Shown here piece after piece: positions 6,853 through 24,451 of a stretch of 64,000 nucleotides of DNA. Source of the DNA: Brenneria bubanii (GTDB lineage Bacteria > Pseudomonadota > Gammaproteobacteria > Enterobacterales > Enterobacteriaceae). The notes under the pieces are model-generated. The model had not been told where the DNA came from. It saw only the letters and a list, made by a program, of their open reading frames with translations, and ran no database searches. Where the stretch lies: NCBI RefSeq assembly GCF_022378355.1, contig NZ_JAKMAJ010000012.1, positions 62,001-126,000 on the forward strand, written 5' to 3'. The position numbers and the translations under genes were made by a program. How positions within the stretch are numbered: position 1 is the stretch's first letter; each line of letters starts with the position of its first letter.

Positions 6853-7830
6853 TTAGTGGCTTCCGAACAGTTGACTAAAGCGTTGTTTGTTCTGCTCGGC
6901 TTCGGTCAGGGCTTTGCCGGCGTCGAATGGCATCAGTTGGATCTGGTCGCGCGGCGGAAAGCCGTCCGGGACCGGCAGATCGGCGCGTGCGGGCAGATAG
7001 CCCTGCTTAAGCACCAGCCTTTGTCCCTGTTCCGACAGGACGAAATCGATAAAGGCTTTGGCGGCAGCGGGATTTTTCGCCGTTTTCATCATCGCGACCG
7101 GTTCGGTAACGATACTGACGCCCTCTTTCGGGAACAGAAACTCTATCGGCGCGCCCTTGGCTTTTTCACGGATCGCCATGAAATCCACCAGTACGCCATA
7201 GGCTTTGCTGCCGGAGGAAACGGCGCTTAATACCGCGCCATTGCCGCCCTGGGGCATGGTGCCGTTCTCTTTCAGTTTCTGATAATAATCCCAGCCAAGC
7301 TGCGGATTGTTAACCAGCGTCGCCAGATGAATCAGCGCGGCGCCGGAATAGAGCGGGCTGGGCATGGTGGTCATATTTTTCAGCTCGGGCTTGAGCAAAT
7401 CCTGCCATGACGTGGGCTTAACCGGCGCCTGACGATGATAGGCGATGCCGGTAGTAATCAGCTTGGTGCCATAGTAATAGCCTTGCGCATCATAGAGCGA
7501 GGGATCGTAACGAGCGGCTTCCGGCGATTGATACGGCGCCAGCAGGTTTTGCTGCCTGAGCGACTCCATCGTCACGCTGTCGGAAATCAGCAGGATATCC
7601 GGCGTGCCGCCGCCTGCGGCCAGCTCAGCCTGTAAACGGGCGGTGAGTTTGGTGGTTCCATCGCGGATCCAGTTCACTTTGATATCCGGATGCGTCTGCT
7701 CGAACGCATTGACGGTCATCTGAGCATCTTCATTGGGCTGGCTGGTATAAAGCATCAGCGTGGTTTTCGCTATTGCCGAGGTGCTGAACATCGCCAAAAG
7801 CATGGCGGCAATAGTTATTTTTTTATGCAT
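6853..7830 (-). CDS. ABC importer periplasmic substrate-binding protein
   Basis: A 325-residue binding protein with a clear Sec signal peptide (MHKKITIAAMLLAMFSTSAIA, cleavage after SAIA). The mature part reads as a type 2 periplasmic binding protein (LMLYTSQPNEDAQMTVNAFEQ; LLISDSVTMESL; MPSPLYSGAALIHLATL), related to the Fe(III), spermidine and 2-aminoethylphosphonate binders. It is the first gene of the minus-strand operon and faces the DeoR-type regulator across 136 bases. The ligand cannot be decided. The accompanying phosphatase and MBL hydrolase favour an organophosphate or phosphorylated sugar over iron, but this is inference. Confidence 0.9.
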   Translation of the reverse strand: MHKKITIAAMLLAMFSTSAIAKTTLMLYTSQPNEDAQMTVNAFEQTHPDIKVNWIRDGTTKLTARLQAELAAGGGTPDILLISDSVTMESLRQQNLLAPYQSPEAARYDPSLYDAQGYYYGTKLITTGIAYHRQAPVKPTSWQDLLKPELKNMTTMPSPLYSGAALIHLATLVNNPQLGWDYYQKLKENGTMPQGGNGAVLSAVSSGSKAYGVLVDFMAIREKAKGAPIEFLFPKEGVSIVTEPVAMMKTAKNPAAAKAFIDFVLSEQGQRLVLKQGYLPARADLPVPDGFPPRDQIQLMPFDAGKALTEAEQNKQRFSQLFGSH

Positions 7831-7966
7831 GTTGGTCTATCCCCTGGTTTTCGTCGTGATAATTAAAACAGGGAAATCTGACAAAAATATGACCGGCGTA
7901 TTTCGTAGTAATAGCTTAATACTTTCGATGTAATATTCCCGCGAGCGTCGAGACAAGGAGAGAAAG

Positions 7967-8737
7967 ATGACACCGGAAGCACGCCGTCGCGCAATCACCA
8001 TCATGGTGACGGAACAGGGAGCACGGAGCATTGAGCAACTGGCCGCGCATTTCAGCGTATCGCTGCAGACCCTGCGCAGCGATGTGCGAGAATTGACCGA
8101 ACAGGGCTTGTTGCTGCGTCGGCACGGTCTGGTCGCGCCCTTCGCACGCGAGAATATTGGTTATCAGCAGCGGGAAATCATTAATGTCGACGGTAAGCGC
8201 TGGATAGGCGAACAGGCCGCCGCTCTGCTTGGCGAATATCAACACTGTTTTCTGGGAACGGGAACCACGGTTGAGATGGTGGCGCGCGCCCTCCCCGCCG
8301 ATACTCGTTTAACGGTGTTCACCAACAATATTCATGCGGCGGAACCGCTCAGCCATTTGCCGGGTTGCGATTTGATTATGGCCGGCGGACGGGTACGTAA
8401 ACGGGATCTGGATATCATCGGCGGCGATGCGCTGGCTTTTTTCAGCCACTATCGGGTAGCGATAGGCGTGGTGTCGGTGGGGGGCGTGGGGGAAGCGGGT
8501 GAACTTTATGATTTCAATGATGACGAAGTGAAAGCGCGCCTGGCGCTGCTGGCCGGCGCGGCGGTAAAAGTACTGGTCGTGGATAGCGCCAAATTCGGCC
8601 GAACGGCGCTCTGCCAAAACGGCAGCATTGCCGATTTTCATTATGTGGTCAGCGATAGACCGCCATCAAAACAGCAGCGCGACGCTTTGCTGAATGTATC
8701 AACGCGCTGGCTATACCGGGAAAAAGCGCAAGTATGA
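7967..8737 (+). CDS. DeoR/GlpR-family transcriptional regulator
   Basis: A 256-residue repressor. The N-terminal helix-turn-helix (IEQLAAHFSVSLQTLRSDVRELTEQGLLLRRHG, residues 19-51) is followed by a sugar-phosphate-isomerase-like sensor domain with GTGTTVEMVARALP, AGGRVRKRDLDIIGG and VDSAKFGRTAL. DeoR-type sensors usually bind phosphorylated sugars or related phosphates. The start has a strong ribosome binding site (AAGGAGAG, 5 bases before ATG). It is divergent from the ABC importer operon, so it probably controls that operon, and the sensor type supports a phosphorylated ligand for the importer. Confidence 0.9.
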   Translation: MTPEARRRAITIMVTEQGARSIEQLAAHFSVSLQTLRSDVRELTEQGLLLRRHGLVAPFARENIGYQQREIINVDGKRWIGEQAAALLGEYQHCFLGTGTTVEMVARALPADTRLTVFTNNIHAAEPLSHLPGCDLIMAGGRVRKRDLDIIGGDALAFFSHYRVAIGVVSVGGVGEAGELYDFNDDEVKARLALLAGAAVKVLVVDSAKFGRTALCQNGSIADFHYVVSDRPPSKQQRDALLNVSTRWLYREKAQV

Positions 8738-8870
8738 CGAACCGCCGGCGACTGAAGCCAGCCATGCTGGCGCGCCCATTCTGTTCTGACCGCTAATCAG
8801 ACGGAGTGGAAAGTCCCTTTTCCCAAGCCCAAAAACGCCCGATGGGTACGGCTCATGACGAGGTTAGGGA

Positions 8871-8911
8871 TGGCCCTTTTTTATGCCCGCCGTTGGCATA
8901 AAAAAGGGCCA
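8871..8911. repeat. Long perfect inverted repeat at the deoR/levansucrase boundary
   Basis: Seventeen-base perfect arms (8871-8887 and 8895-8911) flank a 7-base loop. The second arm also supplies part of the levansucrase terminator stem at 8906-8923, so the two hairpins are mutually exclusive. The repeat lies between the converging ends of the regulator and levansucrase genes. Confidence 0.85.
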
Positions 8912-8923
8912 CCGAAGTGGCCC
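8895..8923 (-). terminator. Intrinsic terminator of levansucrase
   Basis: On the minus strand the 7-bp perfect stem GGGCCAC/GTGGCCC closes a TTCG tetraloop and is followed by six T. It starts 9 bases past the levansucrase stop codon. C(UUCG)G is an unusually stable loop. Confidence 0.9.
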
Positions 8924-8931
8924 GTCGAAGG

Positions 8932-10227
8932 TTATTTCAGCTCAACGTCAATCATTGGGGGAATATAACCATAGTCAAACTCGCCGACCACGAAGGTCTG
9001 AACGCCTTTCAGTTTGATCTGCACCGTCGGGGCTTCGGTGCCGCCGATGCGGTAGGTATCATCGTCTTCGTCAACACCCGTTGGTACGGAATCAATGAAA
9101 GACGTCACCAGACCGTTAGGCATAACGTAGTGCGAGTAAGTCTGGAAAGGCTGAGAAGAAGGGTTGCCCAGCACCAAACCAGAGCCATTCAGGGGTACAT
9201 AAGGCCCGAACAGCTCTTCACTGACGAAACCGTATACGCCGTCAGGTCCGGTCAGACCATCGCCATAGGTGTATTTATGGCTGATGGTGAACAGGTAGTA
9301 TTTTTCGTCCTGGAAAACAAAATGCGGACGTTCCGTCTGGTCGTTAACGCCGACCGCGGTCACCAGCGGCGGCAACATTTCCCAGTCATCGCCATCTTCA
9401 TCACGACAAACCGCGATACCGACGCAGCCGGTTTGGTAGCGAGAATTGCCGACATCTTCATAGCCAGGAGGCACATCCCCAAGCTCGTCAGGGCCCACGA
9501 CATGGGAACCTCGCTCACCGGCGACGTTGCCTTCGAACAGCATATACAGCTTGCCGCTTTTCGGATCGCGGAACGGGCAAGGATCGCGGAAGCCCCAGTA
9601 AGGGTTCTGACTCTCGGTCTGATACATTTTACCGTCCGCTTCAAACAGGCTTTTAACCTTATTGAAGCCGACCATTTCCACCGCGTTTTCCGTCGTCACC
9701 ACGCGGCCGCGAACTTTGACGATGGTGGCGCCCGGCGTAACCGCGGTGTAGTACAGATCGATTTCACCGCTGTCGTTCAGCAGAATCGGCGTTCCCGCCC
9801 ATTCGCGCGTTGTCGGCGACACCCCGTCGGCCATGACGCGACCGCCCATGATCCAGTCTTTACCGGTACGCGAGTACCAGAAGTACATTTTTGCCCGACC
9901 GTGACGGTCGTTCCAGTCGCTGTCGATATCGTAATTTCCGTTTTCATCCAGATACTGCGGATCGGTTGGGTTACGGGAAGCCGTCAGGGTGAAAATAACC
10001 GACCAGCCGTTAACCGAGGCGATATTGCCGTCAAGATCACGCAGCGGCATGGTATCCCAGATAAAAACGTCATCGCTCATTACCGGGAAGTCCCCGCTGA
10101 CTAGCGGTTGGGTGGTGGTCGGATCGTCTTCCGTGACTTTCAGCGCATCGGCCCGCGACCAAATAGATGGTTTATACGGTTTCGTACTTTTCAGGGAGGT
10201 TTTTTTCACTTGATTAACTGTATTCAT
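8932..10227 (-). CDS. lsc: Levansucrase (GH68 fructosyltransferase)
   Basis: A 431-residue levansucrase that splits sucrose and polymerises fructose into levan, an extracellular polysaccharide. The catalytic triad can be placed by eye: nucleophile D58 (FIWDTMPL), transition-state stabiliser D215 (FRDPCPF) and acid/base E299 (DQTERPHF). Each is shifted by 12 from the positions I recall for the Erwinia amylovora enzyme, so this protein has about 12 extra N-terminal residues. There is no signal peptide, as in other Erwinia-type enzymes. The ATG at 10227 is chosen because it has an AAGAGAG ribosome binding site. The frame is open for another 82 codons upstream, but those encode no family sequence and contain terminator hairpins. 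The gene sits in the late-gene position of a phage-derived cassette (holin, Q and repressor upstream). Confidence 0.96.
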
Positions 10228-10244
10228 AATATTTCTCTCTTGAT

Positions 10245-10298
10245 AAAAAAAAAACCAGCCCAGAAAATAAGGGTTAATTTCCTGATGACTGGTTTTTA
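10245..10298 (-). terminator. Terminator hairpin in the levansucrase leader
   Basis: On the minus strand AAAAACCAG pairs with CTGGTTTTT. An inner stem (TCAGGAAAT with ATTTTCTGG, including two G-T pairs) extends it, and a run of ten T follows. The T-run ends about 17 bases before the levansucrase ATG and abuts its ribosome binding site. No promoter can fit between them, so all levansucrase transcripts from upstream must cross this element. Confidence 0.8.
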
Positions 10299-10440
10299 TT
10301 GATGGATGGTTTTCACATAATGACAGGCATAGAAGTGCCCTTCCGTTAATACAACGGAAAACGTTTACTTTAGGATTCAACAAAAAAAGACTTCGTTTCA
10401 AATAGTTTTTATCATATAAATAATTTCTTGCACCTCCTTT
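10299..10440 (-). promoter_or_regulatory. Levansucrase leader region between two terminators
   Basis: This AT-rich stretch separates the holin terminator from the leader terminator. It contains a 7-bp inverted repeat, TTCCGTT-N5-AACGGAA (10341-10359), that could be an operator or an RNA hairpin. It also holds an isolated strong Shine-Dalgarno-like AAAGGAGGTG on the minus strand (around 10430-10440), 17 bases from the nearest ATG, which opens only a 5-codon ORF (MIKTI). I could not assign a convincing promoter. A levansucrase-specific promoter, if any, should lie here. Confidence 0.4.
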
Positions 10441-10497
10441 ATAAAAATCAAAAAAAAGAAAATAACTCATCAAGTAACAGCCATTACCTGATGAGTT
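10441..10497 (-). terminator. Intrinsic terminator directly after the holin gene
   Basis: On the minus strand a 14-bp stem with one G-T pair (AACTCATCAGGTAA with TTACTTGATGAGTT) and a 6-base loop is followed by ATTTTC and eight T. The stem begins at the holin stop codon. It should block read-through into levansucrase unless transcription is antiterminated. Confidence 0.85.
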
Positions 10498-10835
10498 TAT
10501 TTCTTATTCTTTTTATCACTATCTAAGCGGTCATTTAAAAACCTCAATATACCGCGACGAATATGTTCAACGCCGATGAAACCAATCATGCCGCCCAGTG
10601 CTGGCGTCAGCGTCTTGGGCAATGAAAAATACTCCAGAGACGAAACCGCCGTCAGCGTCAGCGCCCCGCAGAGCGCGCCTTCCAATAACATACGCTGCCA
10701 GCCGCCGCCGGTGTAGGCGACGCGAAGGATGGCGATAAAAATCGATAACAGCACCCCCCCCGTAGGGATATCACCGCGCCACCAGGCATGCATTAAGTCG
10801 TAAACACCGGCCCAACTGAAGATATTAATTTGCAT
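10497..10835 (-). CDS. Phage holin, lambda S type
   Basis: A 112-residue membrane protein with three predicted helices ([49 protein letters not shown]) and a highly charged C-terminal tail ([12 protein letters not shown]). This is the layout of class I lambda-type holins, which open lesions in the inner membrane at a set time. Lambda S is 105-107 residues and shows the same R-x-AYTGG / TGG-like loop and IGVEHI-like third helix. The ATG has the ribosome binding site AAGGG. It lies downstream of a Q-like antiterminator and upstream of levansucrase on the same strand. No endolysin or spanin gene follows, so it is an orphan holin. A role in releasing levansucrase is inference. Confidence 0.85.
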
Positions 10836-10908
10836 ATTTACCCTTTTGAAAAATTGATTAAGCCAATAAGAATTCTCTTATAAAAACCGTCAATAATAAA
10901 TACGACAC

Positions 10909-10967
10909 AAAAAAGCCCCGGTTTTATCCGAGGCTGAAATAAAAAAAGCCTGCTAAAAGCAGGCTTT
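10909..10967 (-). terminator. Tandem intrinsic terminators between Q and holin
   Basis: On the minus strand, two hairpins follow each other. The first has stem AAGCCTGCT/AGCAGGCTT, a 3-base loop and seven T (10941-10967). The second has stem AGCCTCGG/CCGGGGCT with one wobble and six T (10909-10935). In lambdoid phages a Q-dependent terminator occupies this place between the late promoter and the lysis genes. Confidence 0.85.
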
Positions 10968-11091
10968 GGAATTCATTTTATTTTTCGATGGGGCAATCAC
11001 TACATCGCCATCATGGGAATTAATTTAACCAATTTTGGACAAGAGCGCAAGCATTTATTTTAGGAAAAATTAAATTATTTCTTGGACATTA
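10968..11091 (-). promoter_or_regulatory. Probable phage late promoter / qut region
   Basis: The 124 bases between the Q stop codon and the tandem terminators occupy the position of lambda pR'. The stretch is AT-rich and contains GTCCAA twice. One possible promoter is TTGCGC, 17 bases, TAAATT on the minus strand, which matches consensus poorly, as expected for a Q-assisted late promoter. The call rests on position more than on sequence. Confidence 0.4.
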
Positions 11092-11787
11092 TTACTGAGG
11101 CGAGGTCACCGTTGAGAATAGTTTTTCTGCTGCCGTAGATTCCTGATAACACTGAGCAATAAGCGAGTCATAAAATACTTTCCAATTTCGTGACCATGTT
11201 CGCTGGGTTAAATCGGGCACCAGGGTTTTAATCACTTTATATACGGTAGCCGACTTGACGGGCTTCATACCGGATCCGCCGCAGCGGGGACAGAGTTTCT
11301 CGATTGTCACTCCCGCCGCCCGCGAAGCTTCCAGATCGGTCACCTTACCCCGCCCCTTGCAGCGACAACGATTCAGCGGATCGTCCGCGGTTCGGCTGTA
11401 CTCTTCCACCGCCATTTTGGCCATCAGCACGATGCAGTGCGCCATCTGTCGGCCCGCCGCTTTACCCACCCGCTTCGGCGCCTGTTTCATCGCAAACCGG
11501 GCGATGCCCTCGATAGCCTTGTTTTTTTCATCAGGGTCTTTGTTGTACTTGCTCAGAATGAGACTAAGCCCCAGCGCTTCGCGCGATTGAACAACCCCCA
11601 GCGCCAACAAAACATCGCTATAGCTGTCGCGCGAGCCTGAAGAAGAAGCGCTGCCCTTTTTAGCCTGACTGATAGGCCTGTTGCCGTTTTGCGGCCGGTA
11701 AGTATACGAAGGCGAAGCATCTTGGCATGTAAACATCAACGACGCTGATTTGGGGCCGCACAGGCTAAGCGCATGTTCAATCTTCAT
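11092..11787 (-). CDS. Phage antitermination protein Q (lambda type)
   Basis: A 231-residue late antiterminator. The C-terminal part resembles lambda Q strongly by eye (YKVIKTLVPDLTQRTWSRNWKVFYDSL, against lambda's YRAVTMLIPNLTQPTWSR...). In lambda, Q binds DNA at the late promoter, joins the paused RNA polymerase and lets it read through terminators. The zinc-binding region is visible as CRCKGRG ... CPRCGGSG. The first knuckle has one residue fewer between its cysteines than lambda's CRDCHGTG, which could weaken zinc binding. The start overlaps the stop of the upstream small ORF (ATGA) and has a GGAGG ribosome binding site. Tandem terminators, a holin and levansucrase lie downstream on the same strand. 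Confidence 0.92.
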   Translation of the reverse strand: MKIEHALSLCGPKSASLMFTCQDASPSYTYRPQNGNRPISQAKKGSASSSGSRDSYSDVLLALGVVQSREALGLSLILSKYNKDPDEKNKAIEGIARFAMKQAPKRVGKAAGRQMAHCIVLMAKMAVEEYSRTADDPLNRCRCKGRGKVTDLEASRAAGVTIEKLCPRCGGSGMKPVKSATVYKVIKTLVPDLTQRTWSRNWKVFYDSLIAQCYQESTAAEKLFSTVTSPQ

Positions 11788-12008
11788 CGTAGATCCTCCG
11801 TATAACGAACAGAAACGCGATGGCGTTTAAGCTCGCTTAATCGTGTAGATAGGCTGGGGCAAGGCGTCCACAGCGCTGTTGTATCCCTATAATGCTTATC
11901 TCCTTCTCCTTTTCGTCTTACCGATCCAAGCAGGCGAATGCCGGAATGTGGTCGGTTCAGGTAGCCGGATCTTGCTCGCAACGGACGTATTGTCGATTTA
12001 CGTTCCAT
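11784..12008 (-). CDS. Small phage-type protein of unknown function
   Basis: A 74-residue, very basic protein (many Arg/Lys) that I do not recognise. Reasons to accept it are a good ribosome binding site (AAAGGAAAG, 5 bases before ATG), a 4-base ATGA overlap with Q, and its position as the first gene of the operon. The C-terminal segment (SLSTRLSELKRHRVSVRY) could be the recognition part of a small winged-helix domain like those in phage HTH proteins, but the match is weak. It lies divergent from the repressor gene. Confidence 0.6.
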   Translation of the reverse strand: MERKSTIRPLRARSGYLNRPHSGIRLLGSVRRKGEGDKHYRDTTALWTPCPSLSTRLSELKRHRVSVRYTEDLR

Positions 12009-12117
12009 AGAGTCTTTCCTTTAAATCTTATGGTGAAATCATGTTGAACAGCCTTGGCGTACGGCCATCCTGCCTATGTGCATCGCCATGCGCCTAGTCA
12101 AAAATCCAGTCATTTTT

Positions 12118-12168
12118 TTGTTGATTTTATCATCCTTAAAGCAGACTATAGTCAACGTAGATCAACAA
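12118..12168. promoter_or_regulatory. Divergent promoter/operator region of the phage cassette
   Basis: The region between the repressor (+) and the Q operon (-) contains TTGTTGAT (12118-12125) and its exact inverse ATCAACAA (12161-12168), a central palindrome GACTATAGTC (12144-12153), and GTTGA direct repeats. A minus-strand promoter is plausible: TTGACT (12150-12155), 18 bases, GATAAA (12126-12131). On the plus strand TATAGT is a possible -10. Binding by the adjacent repressor is inference. Confidence 0.5.
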
Positions 12169-12214
12169 TACAACGAATAAATCCACACCATGTTTATTTT
12201 TTAAGTTGGTGCAA

Positions 12215-12913
12215 ATGACAGAGCTAACCGAACGCCTGCGCTACCTGATGCGCGAAGAGGGATTGAAACAAAAGGATTTAGCAGAAATTGTGGGCACATC
12301 ACCTCAAACCGTGAACAACTGGTTGAAACGAGGGAAGCTGAGCCGTGAGTCAGCCCAGGCCATCAATGAAAAAACCGGTTATTCACTCGACTGGTTGCTC
12401 AGTGGCATTGGTCATCCGAAACCAGAGAGCAGTAATTTCAAGGCATCCCGTTTGCACGTGACCGAATGGGAAAGCATTGATAACGATGACGATGAATTTG
12501 TGGAGGTTCCATTGTTAGGAGTCAGGCTATCAGCCGGAGGAGGGGCGTATGATATCGATGAAGATGAAGTGTATGCGCTTCCCTTTCGTACTCATACTTT
12601 AAGGCGGCTTGGTATCCGGGTAGAAGATACCCGCGTGGTTACCGTAATGGGCGATAGTATGGAGCCCAAGTTATCAGACGGCGATAAGGTTGCCGTCAAT
12701 CTGTCAGACAGGCAAATTCGGGATGGCAAAATGTACGCCATCCGAATGGGTGAACTGCAGCGCGTCAAAGCGCTGATCAAGCGCCCCGATGGCAGTATCA
12801 TCGTGCGTTCCTACAATCCGCTTTACGAAGATGAGATTGTGACCAAAGAACAGATCATCAATGGCGAACTGGCGGTTATCGGACGTGTCTGGTGGGTTTC
12901 GGCGCTAGTATAA
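12215..12913 (+). CDS. LexA/CI-like self-cleaving phage repressor
   Basis: A 232-residue repressor. The N-terminal helix-turn-helix (LKQKDLAEIVGTSPQTVNNWLKRGKL, residues 17-42) is followed by an S24-peptidase domain. The catalytic serine is S148 (GDSMEP) and the lysine K185 (QRVKAL); their spacing of 37 equals that of LexA. The probable cleavage site is A107-G108 (LSAGGG). Such repressors inactivate themselves when RecA is activated by DNA damage. The ATG at 12215 is chosen because the helix-turn-helix starts normally from it; an upstream TTG at 12206 in the same frame is possible, and neither has a strong ribosome binding site. It is divergent from the Q operon, which it presumably represses. 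Confidence 0.92.
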   Translation: MTELTERLRYLMREEGLKQKDLAEIVGTSPQTVNNWLKRGKLSRESAQAINEKTGYSLDWLLSGIGHPKPESSNFKASRLHVTEWESIDNDDDEFVEVPLLGVRLSAGGGAYDIDEDEVYALPFRTHTLRRLGIRVEDTRVVTVMGDSMEPKLSDGDKVAVNLSDRQIRDGKMYAIRMGELQRVKALIKRPDGSIIVRSYNPLYEDEIVTKEQIINGELAVIGRVWWVSALV

Positions 12914-13172
12914 AGGATTCGATCCCAGCGATCGACGCAAGCCGCGAATCGCAATTTTCGATCCAGAGGCCGCCTTGATTAACGCCAACCGCCATTCTCG
13001 CTAATCAGGAGCACATTCGCAGGCAAACTGTTATGAGCCTTGATGCGCGAGCGCTCAGCGCAGGAGCATGAGGCGATTTAATAAGGCGGCTCGCCATCAC
13101 TACGCGCATTGCCTGGCGACTTTCGTTGCGATAACGGCATAAGACCCATTGACGATCGGGGCGCAGCCCGTT

Positions 13173-13889
13173 TCAGCAACAAAGAAAGGTGGTAATGTCA
13201 TCGGGTCTTTGCAGATAGGTCCCGCGAAAACGGCGGCCGGCATGAAATTCTGACGTCAAATCAGTCAGCAGCTCCAGTTCAAAGCTCTGCCCGACGTTAT
13301 CCAGCGCGATCATTCTCGCATCAAAAAAATCGAAATAGTGCTTAATTTGGGGATACAGCGCCTTAAACAGGCTCTCTTTGGCAGAAAAATTTAGCGTCAA
13401 TAAGCGATGGAAGGAGTCATCCTGAGCGTTGAGCCAGCGATACTCTTCTTCATCGACCAGGCCCGGCCACAATTCCTGAGCGCGTTTTTCAGACATAAAT
13501 GTCTCAATGTCGACGCCGACACAGGGAAGATCGCGGCTGTGGATATGCGCGGCGCACAGTACGCTATTGACGTTATGGCTTAAGGAACCGGAAACATCGT
13601 CAGGCCACCGGGGAGACCGATCTTCAGCATTGTTGAGAATAAATCCCGCATAACCGAGCTTACTCAAAACCTGCTTCGCCAGGCAGCGGCCGGCCAGAAA
13701 CTCCGCCCGCCGCTTCGGCACCGAGCGAGCCAACATATCCGAAAATGGAATCTCGGCCTCGGCAAACAACGCGTCAGAATAGGCAGACAGATGGAAATAA
13801 CTGCGGGCGCTGAAGCCAGGGTATATAGCGCCATCTTTAGTCAGTGGAAATGTAATCCATTCAATTTCATCAATAAAAGCAGAAAGCAT
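13173..13889 (-). CDS. 4'-phosphopantetheinyl transferase (EntD type)
   Basis: A 238-residue enzyme that transfers the phosphopantetheine arm of CoA to carrier proteins of non-ribosomal peptide, polyketide or siderophore synthases. Diagnostic motifs are GSLSHN (near 100-105), the magnesium-binding GVDIE (near 124-128) and FSAKESLFKALYP (near 168-180). R-R-A-E-F-L-A-G-R in the N-terminal half is typical of the EntD branch. No synthase genes are in the window, so it stands alone and its partner is elsewhere. It follows the phage-derived cassette, separated by 259 bases with no recognisable gene. Confidence 0.92.
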   Translation of the reverse strand: MLSAFIDEIEWITFPLTKDGAIYPGFSARSYFHLSAYSDALFAEAEIPFSDMLARSVPKRRAEFLAGRCLAKQVLSKLGYAGFILNNAEDRSPRWPDDVSGSLSHNVNSVLCAAHIHSRDLPCVGVDIETFMSEKRAQELWPGLVDEEEYRWLNAQDDSFHRLLTLNFSAKESLFKALYPQIKHYFDFFDARMIALDNVGQSFELELLTDLTSEFHAGRRFRGTYLQRPDDITTFLCC

Positions 13890-13984
13890 GTCACTTTACT
13901 CTTGAAGGCGAAATTACTTTCAGGGCAATCCAGCACCTCAACCTTCAATGAATAATGGGCGGCTCCCCCCCATTATTGTTGCTA

Positions 13985-14225
13985 AATCAAGAACCATCAC
14001 AACGCGACAAAAACTGGCGATGCTGGCGCTCATCAGGCTGGAAAGCGCACCCGCCATTGCCGCTTTCCAACCGAACCGAGCAATGCCTTGACGCCGACTC
14101 GTGCCATGCCGCCCAGTCCTCCAATAAGAATAGCTACCGATGGCAGGTTAGCAAATCCATTAAACGCGATCGAAATAATCGCCCCGGAACGTTCAGATAA
14201 AATCGGCAAAACACTGGCCGCGTCA
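13985..14225 (-). pseudogene. Fragment of a nucleoside permease (NupC family)
   Basis: Reading on the minus strand, LSERSGAIISIAFNGFANL followed by PSVAILIGGLGGMA matches the C-terminal core of NupC-type concentrative nucleoside transporters (the GFAN...IGGLG motif). The rest of the roughly 400-residue gene is missing. After GVKALLGSV the frame breaks, and the expected continuation (KAAMAGALSSLMSASIASF) is found in another frame, so there is also a frameshift. It lies immediately before the yjjV-like gene on the same strand. It should be non-functional. Confidence 0.75.
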
Positions 14226-14228
14226 GGC

Positions 14229-15056
14229 TTAGCAATTCCTGGCTGGTAGTGCGAACAGACGAAGGCTGTTGTGGTAGATCGCACTGGCGATCTCATCGGC
14301 AGGTTCGGAACGTAGTTGGCAAAGCGTCTGAAAAACGGCGGCTATCCTTTCAGGCCTGTTCGGCTCTCCCTGATGGCCGCACACCGGCATATCCGGGGCA
14401 TCCGTTTCCAGAACCAGGCTATCGAGAGGCAAACGGGCAATCGCCTGGCGCGTCTTATTCGCCCGAGGATAGGTGATTGTACCGCCAACGCCAATATAAT
14501 AACCCAAGCGGACAAAGGCCTGCGCCTGCTCGAGACTTCCCGCAAACCCGTGAACCACGCCGGTACGCGGCACGTCCGTACGACGCAATAGCTGCGCGAG
14601 TCGATCGTGACTACGGCGTGAATGCAGAATGACGGGAAGATCATACGTTTTAGCCAGCCTGAGCTGAGCCTCAAGAAGCGAACATTGTCGCGCTAACTGC
14701 GGATCTTGCATATAAAGATCCAGCCCGATTTCACCTACCGCCGCCAGATTCGTCGAATGGTGACGCAGCTGGTGTTCCAGCAATGCCAGATCGGAATCAA
14801 GATGATGGGAGATATAGAGAGGATGTAGCCCAAGCGCGGCATAAACAGCGATGTGTTCGCATGCCAGTCGGAGCACGCGATCAAAATAGCGGGACTCAAC
14901 GGCCGGAATAACCATCCGCTCGACACCGGCCATAGCGGCCAGTCGCAAACTCGCCGCAGTATCCTCGCTGAACGGTGGGAAATCGAAATGGCAGTGCGTA
15001 TCAATAAATATATGACGGGAAAGGCTCTCCCCGGAAACGCGGTTCTCTGTGGTCAT
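14229..15056 (-). CDS. yjjV: TatD-family metal-dependent hydrolase YjjV
   Basis: A 275-residue putative metal-dependent DNase/hydrolase. Metal ligands are visible in FIDTHCHFDFPPF, VGEIGLDL, VILHSRRSHD, VVHGFAGS and LETDAPDMP. The sequence resembles E. coli YjjV more than TatD or YcfH (FDFPPFS, GVGGTITYPRA, RTGVVHGF). The ATG at 15056 is chosen because it leaves a short tail before the conserved FIDTHCHF; a longer form from 15131 would add 25 residues of no family similarity. In E. coli yjjV lies near ytjA and osmY, as here, with yjjU between them; yjjU is absent here. A nupC fragment follows downstream. Confidence 0.9.
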   Translation of the reverse strand: MTTENRVSGESLSRHIFIDTHCHFDFPPFSEDTAASLRLAAMAGVERMVIPAVESRYFDRVLRLACEHIAVYAALGLHPLYISHHLDSDLALLEHQLRHHSTNLAAVGEIGLDLYMQDPQLARQCSLLEAQLRLAKTYDLPVILHSRRSHDRLAQLLRRTDVPRTGVVHGFAGSLEQAQAFVRLGYYIGVGGTITYPRANKTRQAIARLPLDSLVLETDAPDMPVCGHQGEPNRPERIAAVFQTLCQLRSEPADEIASAIYHNSLRLFALPARNC

Positions 15057-15152
15057 CGCCTTGAGCACTATGATAAATTTATGGGGTAAAGCCACCCCGC
15101 TGATGCCGGCAATCCGGCAACAGAAACGCACAACAGCGTTAACTGTTTATCT

Positions 15153-15341
15153 TCAATGCAGGACGGTCTTCTCCGAGGAGGCTTTTTCGGACTCTTTACC
15201 GTAATCTTCTTGCAGCACGCCGGACAAATAACCATTGTTGCCTTCCAGCCATGCGCAATCACTATCAAACCATTCAGCCCACATCGCCCAGAAATTCCCT
15301 TTCCACTGCTTCCATTTGCCGACCACGATATCGCTATTCAC
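15153..15341 (-). CDS. CsbD-like general stress protein
   Basis: A 62-residue protein of the CsbD/YjbJ type: NSDIVVGKWKQWKGNFWAMWAEW, then LEGNNGYLSGVLQEDYGKESEKA, matches the family pattern of GxWKQ.KG followed by EG...L.G..QE.YG. Members are small, soluble stress-induced proteins of unknown mechanism. The GTG at 15341 is chosen because GGAGG lies 5 bases upstream; the ATG at 15362 has no ribosome binding site and would add seven unrelated residues. The tryptophan-rich middle (six Trp) is unusual for the family. It sits where yjjU is found in E. coli. Confidence 0.8.
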   Translation of the reverse strand: MNSDIVVGKWKQWKGNFWAMWAEWFDSDCAWLEGNNGYLSGVLQEDYGKESEKASSEKTVLH

Positions 15342-15585
15342 ACACACCTCCGCTATACCCAATACAACTCCGACGGGCTATCCTGCTTGTTTACAGAGGC
15401 CTGTGCCCGCGACGCTAAAAAACGCTCCCGGATTTTATTACCGGTCCCTTCCCTGAGACGCTTGCCGCACCTTGAAAAGAGACAAGGTAAATACTGTCGA
15501 AGATAAGCGAATACTACGGCTAACAGTGTGCTGATTAAATATGACAGCCAGATGGCATGGCTGTCTCTGTTTCCACTATTTGATT

Positions 15586-24267: not shown

Positions 24268-24451
24268 GGAATCTCCGAGATGCCGCCGCAGGCTGTAACC
24301 CTTGAACCCTTGGTTCAAGGTGAACATAACGTCGCGGTCTTAAGGCTTCTCGGACGAACCGAGCATGCTCACCAACTGCGGAGCGTTACATTCTATTGGT
24401 TTGAAATATCGGCTCAGGGGACTGGCCCGCTGACAAACATCTCAGAGAAAT
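24268..24451 (-). ncRNA. ssrS: 6S RNA
   Basis: The 184 bases on the minus strand run from ATTTCTCTGAGATG to CTCGGAGATTCC. They match the E. coli 6S RNA ends, length and internal blocks (GGGCCAGTCCCCTGAGCCGATATTTC; GTGAGCATGCTCGG; CCTTGAACCAAGGGTTCAAGG; CGGCGGCATCTCGGAGA). Both ends pair to form the closing stem. 6S RNA sequesters sigma-70 RNA polymerase in stationary phase. It lies between zapA and ygfA as in E. coli. Confidence 0.97.

Follow-up and report, generated by a model that had tools for sequence, protein, structure and literature searches.

A conserved repressor-Q-holin cassette places the levansucrase gene of Brenneria in a phage late-gene position

The subject of this analysis is a four-gene cassette in the window, i.e., a stretch of 64,000 nucleotides from contig 12 of the 4.9-Mb genome of Brenneria bubanii. 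The genus Brenneria lives on trees and is related to the soft-rot bacteria. The cassette encodes a CI-type repressor, a lambda-family antiterminator Q, a lambda-family holin (Hol) and a levansucrase (Lsc). On the minus strand the order toward lsc is Q, a late-promoter block, two terminators, hol, a hairpin, a leader terminator and lsc; the repressor gene is divergent, and lsc occupies the place of the lambda endolysin gene R. It is probable that the cassette is a minimal domesticated lambda-type late switch, in which loss of CI would lead to Q, Q to read-through and read-through to the expression of hol and lsc, the holin opening the inner membrane. The arrangement suggests that a phage release programme was taken over to place levansucrase outside the cell. 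The genes, their order, the anatomy of promoter and terminators, the conservation and the selection are observed directly; CI cleavage, Q loading and read-through would follow by analogy with lambda.

Genes of the cassette, their order and their selection

The comparison set contains 11 genomes: 10 Brenneria genomes (the window's own included) and Pectobacterium betavasculorum, included by choice, carriage of the cassette being the criterion. All 10 genomes returned by the genus search for Brenneria carry lsc, and the order CI-Q-hol-lsc is identical in the 10 and in P. betavasculorum. In none of the 11 genomes is there an internal stop in CI, Q or Hol, nor in Lsc over its last 412 codons. When the window is compared with the ten others, the ratio of nonsynonymous to synonymous changes (dN/dS) is 0.015-0.032 for CI (9 of 10 comparisons, the tenth being saturated), 0.069-0.174 for Q (8 of 10, the other two saturated), 0.039-0.108 for Hol (9 of 10, the tenth saturated) and 0.037-0.095 for Lsc (all 10, measured over its last 412 codons). 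The four cassette genes are open and under purifying selection.

The repressor-Q-holin-levansucrase cassette had been recognised in a first-pass annotation of this DNA; given the order kept in 10/10 Brenneria and the purifying selection, it stands more firmly than was stated there. Loss of the cassette or interruption of its proteins, named in that annotation as grounds for giving it up, was not found: the four genes are intact and in the same order in the 11 genomes. As to whether the unit is shared by Brenneria, Erwinia and Pantoea, the answer is divided, since it is kept in 10/10 Brenneria but the Pantoea vagans plasmid locus is of P2 type, not the Q version, and an Erwinia lsc locus was not identified. 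In particular, no lsc locus of Erwinia amylovora was identified in two further genus searches for Lsc, which gave matches in 0/25 genomes and in 5/6 genomes (two lsc matches each); the latter genus is unlike E. amylovora as described in the available text of PMC3899960.

The CI-type repressor (12215..12913, plus strand, 232 amino acids (aa)) combines a helix-turn-helix (HTH) domain, PF01381, with an S24 self-cleavage domain, PF00717, and matches phi80 CI at 42%. The S148/K185 dyad assigned to it earlier is right, counting from the ATG at 12215. This Ser/Lys dyad is invariant in 11/11 genomes, as is an Ala-Gly located where phi80 CI has the Cys-Gly at which it is cleaved. HTH and S24 domain, Ser/Lys dyad and Ala-Gly, i.e., the sequence features of an SOS-cleavable CI, are all present, and SOS induction of the switch is likely by analogy.

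Q (11092..11787, minus strand, 231 aa) matches PF03589 (E=1.5e-30) and the lambda Q chains 7ubm and 4mo1 of the Protein Data Bank (PDB; E=5e-32 and 9e-29, the best being listed as 5.4e-32); the closest phage Q is that of BZS1 (51%). The product of hol (10497..10835, minus strand, 112 aa) matches PF05106 (E=2.4e-28), and the lambda holin model TIGR01594 above its cut-off. That of lsc (8932..10227, minus strand, 431 aa) is a levansucrase of family GH68 (PF02435, E=4e-151). The first-pass identities of these three proteins (lambda-Q-like, lambda-type holin, levansucrase) agree with the matches. Judged on hydropathy only, Lsc has no N-terminal hydrophobic stretch: the maximum over 15 residues in the first 80 is 0.95, at residue 42. 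No phage-borne lsc was matched by tblastn in 50,697 phage records, and the 6 stretches matched by a peptide-pattern scan of IMG/VR, which catches close relatives only, encode no Lsc relative. It may thus be in bacteria that switch and lsc were joined, absence from collections not being proof.

Between CI and Q lies a divergent control region (12118..12168) with an 8-bp inverted repeat, TTGTTGAT / ATCAACAA, as candidate operators; by eye, one half is kept in 11/11 rows of the alignment and the other in 10/11. A 74-aa open reading frame (ORF; 11784..12008, minus strand) overlaps the start of Q. It belongs to no family, is shortened in the genome G778 and was not found in Brenneria roseae. Its ratio of nonsynonymous to synonymous polymorphism (pN/pS) of 0.6-1.3 (28 pairs, 8 genomes) gives no sign of selection at the protein level; a conserved protein is improbable here. 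The possibility of a Cro- or N-like gene was considered and, as a conserved protein, rejected because pN/pS is near 1. Its status as a gene of the operon is not supported, as neither a family nor protein constraint speaks for it; the stretch could still serve a leader function.

Around the cassette, the remaining ORFs of 7000-15500 given to Pfam include no phage gene; a solute-binding protein, a DeoR regulator and a phosphopantetheinyl transferase were found instead. Ten additional ORFs (51-395 aa) within 8917-12801 match no Pfam family. The 4'-phosphopantetheinyl transferase gene (13173-13889, minus strand) adjoins the repressor gene, and is present at a varying distance in the fetched flank of 9/10 Brenneria (not G779) and of P. 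betavasculorum. A 6S RNA at 24268-24451 (minus strand) is the sole Rfam match above threshold in the window.

Late promoter, terminators and the lsc leader

The pR'/qut-like late promoter (11008..11051, minus strand) lies directly after Q and is the best-conserved portion of the Q-hol gap. It is composed of a -35-like hexamer (TTGACT in lambda and TTGCGC in the window, the other Brenneria having TTGCAC or TTGCAT), a 17-bp spacer that includes a lambda-like Q-binding stretch containing AAAATTGG, a -10 (TAAATT, as in the window, or TAGATT) and a start region ending with GATGG. Lambda pR' (TTGACTTATTGAATAAAATTGGGTAAATTTGACTCAACGATGG) and the window sequence (TTGCGCTCTTGTCCAAAATTGGTTAAATTAATTCCCATGATGG) are identical at 28 of 43 positions without gaps (24-29 across the 11 genomes), and the start region of the window, CATGATGG, resembles that of lambda, CAACGATGG. 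The top match of the lambda 43-mer anywhere in the window is this very site (28, the runner-up having 25). In the P22 record the corresponding spot bears the annotations P late and qut-like and is followed by a terminator.

A 39-base pattern allowing up to 3 mismatches finds exactly one site in each of the 10 Brenneria genomes, the backward control giving 0; since the pattern was built from the Brenneria rows, the sites are recovered by construction, and what the search adds is the absence of a second site. The late-promoter pattern has 0 matches in 100 shuffles of the window. With no second qut-like site per genome, Q would seem to have just one target. The pR'/qut claim is carried by place, single occurrence and conservation, because the 43-mer match alone is partly compatible with chance. 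By sequence and placement the Q module comprises a lambda-family Q, an adjoining pR'/qut-like site, terminators directly after it and a holin downstream, and it is very likely that Q controls the late transcript. It must be noted that the window's own genome also holds, on contig 8, a lambda-like prophage (L139) with its own Q, holin and lysozyme and, by eye, Rz-like genes. The sequence after the Q of this prophage differs from the late-promoter block of the cassette.

Two tR'-like terminators were located by a pattern scan at 10945..10967 and 10914..10935 (minus strand), in a region aligned in the 11 genomes, the first being weakest in P. betavasculorum. The same scan gives terminator-like hairpins after the hol stop (10464..10497, minus strand) and downstream of lsc (8906..8923, minus strand). 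The scan alone proves little, because 8 terminator-like sites in 8800-13000 stand against a shuffled mean of 5.3. The tandem terminators announced in the first-pass annotation are the sites at 10945-10967 and 10914-10935. As for the two more terminators that it placed before lsc, the leader terminator is present in 11/11 genomes but the hairpin at 10464-10497 can be made out clearly, by eye, in the window and its closer relatives and not beyond them.

The lsc leader terminator (10245..10294, minus strand) is a two-part hairpin (10253-10294) followed by a U-run, and ends 17 nucleotides (nt) before the lsc ATG in 11/11 genomes. Compensatory changes maintain the hairpin: double changes are seen in 13/17 of its pairs and 94.1% of cells are paired. 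None of 500 shuffles gives values as high, and those of slid registers are much lower, the structure being favoured in this last control as it was derived from the same rows. Transcripts from upstream must cross the terminator, and the 17-nt gap between it and lsc is too short to hold a promoter; a start of lsc transcription in this interval, which would have spoken against the first-pass reading, has no place there. Thus lsc seems to need terminator read-through. The wiring proposed at first (repressor, Q, late transcription across the terminators) gains support from the repressor dyad and Ala-Gly, the lambda-Q relative, the pR'/qut-like promoter, the terminators and the leader terminator.

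The hol-lsc gap also contains a Shine-Dalgarno-like element, AAGGAGG (10433..10439, minus strand), 54-67 nt after the hol stop in 11/11 genomes. By eye it is followed by very short reading frames at most. It is possibly an mRNA-stabilising ribosome site or the start of a tiny leader peptide.

Holins and P2-type activators beside lsc in other bacteria

Searches for Lsc gave matches in 1/369 genomes class-wide (the window's own), 6/394 order-wide and 25/392 family-wide. The lsc survey was entered by 74 loci, reduced to 72 by a score cut which removed two distant levansucrases (L079, L080), and to 66 genomes/records by merging genome repeats (L129, L158, L154, L155, L035 and one of two G691 loci); L066, L067, L068 and L074 had been excluded beforehand as copies of L001, L027, L032 and L031. 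These 66 were gathered by likeness to the window's Lsc and are not a random sample. Out of 68 plasmid records with lsc, 4 were examined.

A lambda-family holin adjoins lsc in 25/66 genomes/records, in several layouts: (i) CI and Q precede hol-lsc in 11 of the 25; (ii) in G113 the order is CI, holin, lsc, then a GH24 lysozyme, no Q being found, and the holin is 68% identical to lambda S and 28% to the Brenneria holin; (iii) in 11/25 a P2-type Ogr/Delta gene is divergent and the holin follows lsc (Hafnia psychrotolerans, a Rahnella plasmid, a Pantoea plasmid whose holin is weak and under the Pfam cut-off, and eight further genomes); (iv) in two Acinetobacter the holin follows lsc, one having Ogr farther downstream. 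Five of the holin-adjacent genomes, all of one genus, have one holin between two lsc genes. Among the 19 genomes with lsc-holin pairs searched for GH24 lysozyme, it adjoins lsc only in G113. Some loci call for a remark: in L073 (6500-10400, G113) one in-frame stop was counted within the lsc search match; in L071, L135, L136, L137 and L138 (5/6 genomes of one genus) each of the two lsc has its own Ogr-type dyad (see below); and the second lsc of G691 (L160, G691:C1:2610771-2611975), matched in two pieces, lies beside an Ogr gene.

The 41/66 without a holin within the flanks are 27 Pseudomonas, 5 Lonsdalea, 3 Rahnella, 2 Prodigiosinella, Ewingella, G087, G082 and G691, some of the Lonsdalea, Rahnella, Prodigiosinella and Pseudomonas assignments meaning a genus shared with a named genome. 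In three of these 41 loci a flank is shorter than 2 kb on one side (L006 and L020 downstream, L027 upstream) and a holin could escape there. The background of PF05106 was taken from 26 lsc genomes, which include those where the pair had already been seen and exclude G298 and G408 (distant levansucrases): 19 of its 24 matches are adjacent to lsc. The other five are in the contig 8 prophage of the window's genome, in G087, G778 and G098, and in G114, where a second match lies about 1.1 kb beyond lsc. Downstream of the B. roseae lsc (L001, 7600-9341) a HicAB-like pair and an endolysin-like ORF (by eye) accompany a second PF05106 holin.

In the Ogr group a dyad, CACAACA-N-TGTTGTG, is found upstream of lsc; it was defined post hoc from the loci of that group. 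In the 1,011,933 bases of fetched loci the strict form was counted 12 times, each time immediately ahead of an Ogr-group lsc, the holders being Pantoea, G098, G111, G578, G648, G708 and G774. The dyad is looser in G351 and G372, and only half-sites are present in Hafnia, Rahnella and Acinetobacter rathckeae; a loose dyad also stands in Acinetobacter sp. ESL0695, which has no Ogr nearby. Annotated activator sites of phage P2 contain TGTTGTGTCAG, GGTTGTGCTG and TGTTGTCTGG. From the dyad before lsc and its likeness to the P2 sites, Ogr probably acts at lsc. Ogr-like genes are themselves common (187/392 family genomes) and the neighbourhood is the informative part. In E. amylovora an ogr/Delta-like zinc finger gene, EAMY_RS35565, is listed in the transcriptome table of PMC12542790 as available, and might be the levan activator gene rlsB. 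In the table of PMC3445560, rlsB (Eam_3467) is numbered beside lsc (Eam_3468).

A supported branch (99/96) in the 72-row Lsc tree has the Q-hol group as one of its sides and separates it from the main Ogr-holin group. For the Ogr-holin label 5 changes are required, 3 of them forced by supported branches. The Brenneria holin is closest to a Yersinia phage holin (59.5%), the lsc-linked holins compared reaching at most 52%. The tree split and the holin identities make separate captures of holin-lsc pairs likely, most clearly for G113 and Brenneria.

Readings of the cassette and comparison with known systems

In the domesticated late switch, CI would repress the divergent transcript carrying Q until it is inactivated, most likely through RecA-stimulated self-cleavage after DNA damage. 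Q would then be made and, at the pR'/qut site that follows its gene, would load onto RNA polymerase; the modified polymerase would reach hol by crossing both tR' terminators, and lsc by crossing the leader terminator as well. The holin and the leaderless enzyme would thus be co-produced in rare induced cells, where the former would open the inner membrane to the latter. That the holin releases levansucrase is plausible. This step is the least certain part of the scheme, together with the passage of wall and outer membrane, no endolysin or spanin gene being seen in the cassette.

Several observations weigh against this scheme. A simple palindrome script gave nothing convincing for CI operators. 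The phage late-promoter match taken alone is moderate: the P22 43-mer scores 27 both at the late-promoter site and at one other place of the window, and for the BZS1 43-mer the site is second best (25, with 26 elsewhere). The lambda holin has a double start; that of the window starts with MQ and lacks it, which makes its timing control uncertain. Among the cassette genes and the ten further ORFs, Pfam gives no endolysin family, and no spanin was recognised, spanins being short, poorly conserved proteins for which no dedicated model was run. GH24 lysozyme is absent from 5/19 genomes with lsc-holin pairs, other lysin families not having been searched. A universal release role is opposed by the 41/66 genomes/records without an adjacent lambda-family holin, Pseudomonas (27/27) among them; since the Pseudomonas levansucrase is called extracellular (PMC3899960, available text), Lsc can exit without such a neighbour. 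Moreover, neither levan formation nor Lsc secretion of P. syringae changed when com, a phage gene adjoining plasmid-borne lscB, carried a stop codon (same source); phage neighbours are thus not always relevant.

These 41 holin-less loci, which include near relatives on the Lsc tree (Pseudomonas, Lonsdalea, Rahnella inusitata, G087), are also what speaks for a role in regulation only: Q-dependent late transcription would control lsc, the holin would be a linked killing or dispersal gene, and Lsc would exit by a route common to these bacteria. This is rather unlikely, as a holin stands beside lsc in three layouts (before it, after it, between two lsc), and the G113 holin, far closer to lambda S than to its Brenneria counterpart, indicates that the pairing probably arose more than once. 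Another explanation, quite improbable, restricts Q to tR' for the holin and leaves the leader terminator to a non-Q factor, e.g., a sugar-responsive RNA-binding antiterminator such as that of sacB in Bacillus. It could account for the distance of about 750 bp between leader hairpin and pR' and for the AAGGAGG element kept in 11/11 leaders; on the other side, Q-modified polymerase passes several terminators in lambda, and the alignment of the hol-lsc gap displays no other promoter-like conserved block, no promoter test having been run across the 11. Chance, or a prophage remnant, was rejected on the conservation, the selection and the single qut site. The survival of phage regulatory and holin genes alone is what a decaying remnant merely upstream of lsc would leave, but this is very improbable and already contradicted by purifying selection at dS from 0.4 to saturation, the single pR'/qut site, the covarying leader terminator and the fixed order.

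A further reading, which is unlikely, extends the late switch to a sucrose-gated lysis in which levansucrase would stand in for the endolysin functionally and not only by its place in the gene order. Once cells are induced, the holin would bring levansucrase to the sucrose at the envelope; levan, too big to exit, would swell the periplasm until the cell bursts, and lysis with release of enzyme and levan would be confined to places with sucrose (plant sap). Toxicity of periplasmic levan in Gram-negatives (sacB; low-salt or weakened-wall conditions) is described in the available text of PMC8820737, so that, speculatively, the enzyme could burst a holin-opened cell given sucrose. If true, the holin-levansucrase pairs, captured more than once with late control of lambda or P2 type, would amount to a lysis system that is gated by its substrate and needs no endolysin.

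To our knowledge, the exit route of leaderless levansucrase in Gram-negative plant bacteria is not settled; the cassette and its relatives offer a concrete exit route and a switch for it. Should the domesticated late switch be correct, lambda Q/qut antitermination would have been retained genus-wide for a host gene, with a parallel P2-type Ogr arrangement elsewhere, and DNA damage, phage late control and exopolysaccharide production would be tied together. Among the literature matches listed, mostly non-subscription papers, none joins levansucrase to Q, Ogr or a holin by its title and abstract opening.

The closest known system is the late control of lambda and P22 (CI or C2, Q or gp23, pR', tR', S or 13), with which the cassette has in common the Q family, the pR'/qut layout beside Q, the terminator(s) behind pR', the holin downstream and the HTH plus S24 repressor. 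It differs in that R, Rz and Rz1 are not seen, lsc being at the place of R, in the extra terminator hairpin of the lsc leader, and in that replication, structural and integration genes are not seen near it. RdgA and RdgB of Pectobacterium are phage-type regulators, RdgB being an activator and not a Q antiterminator. Their control of pectin lyase is similar in that regulators of a plant-related exoenzyme answer DNA-damaging agents (Liu 1994, by its title in the references of PMC7843439). In P. syringae, lscB/C have a phage-associated promoter element, i.e., levansucrase is also under a prophage-like upstream region (PMC3899960 and PMC3973379, available parts); there, however, the phage gene is a Mu-type com without effect on lscB expression, and neither Q nor a lambda-family holin was found within the flanks examined.

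As regards release, the type 10 secretion systems (Serratia ChiWXYZ, Yersinia entomophaga YenLC) likewise tie a phage holin outside a phage to an exported cargo (PMC9527704, PMC10847048, as available). Of the features of that type, a holin outside a prophage linked to a cargo gene is present here, and a cognate endolysin in the cluster is not: neither endolysin nor spanin is seen in the cassette, the relative G113 having a GH24 lysozyme after lsc. Moreover, the cassette keeps the lambda CI-Q switch, whereas the release by YenLC is described as SOS-insensitive. The clostridial holins of TcdE type also adjoin a large exoprotein without signal peptide, at loci where the original endolysin gene is inactivated (PMC9527704, available text); the Brenneria cassette differs from them in being Gram-negative, in encoding an enzyme and not a toxin, and in its Q/pR' control. 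In the text available of that 2022 review, endolysins are the only proteins shown to be holin-translocated in Gram-negatives, and the secretion of a MaeB homologue dropped in a holin mutant; in PMC10847048 (2024), cytoplasmic cargo is released only together with lysis by endolysin and spanin. A holin-only route for the enzyme, if true, would differ from both accounts.

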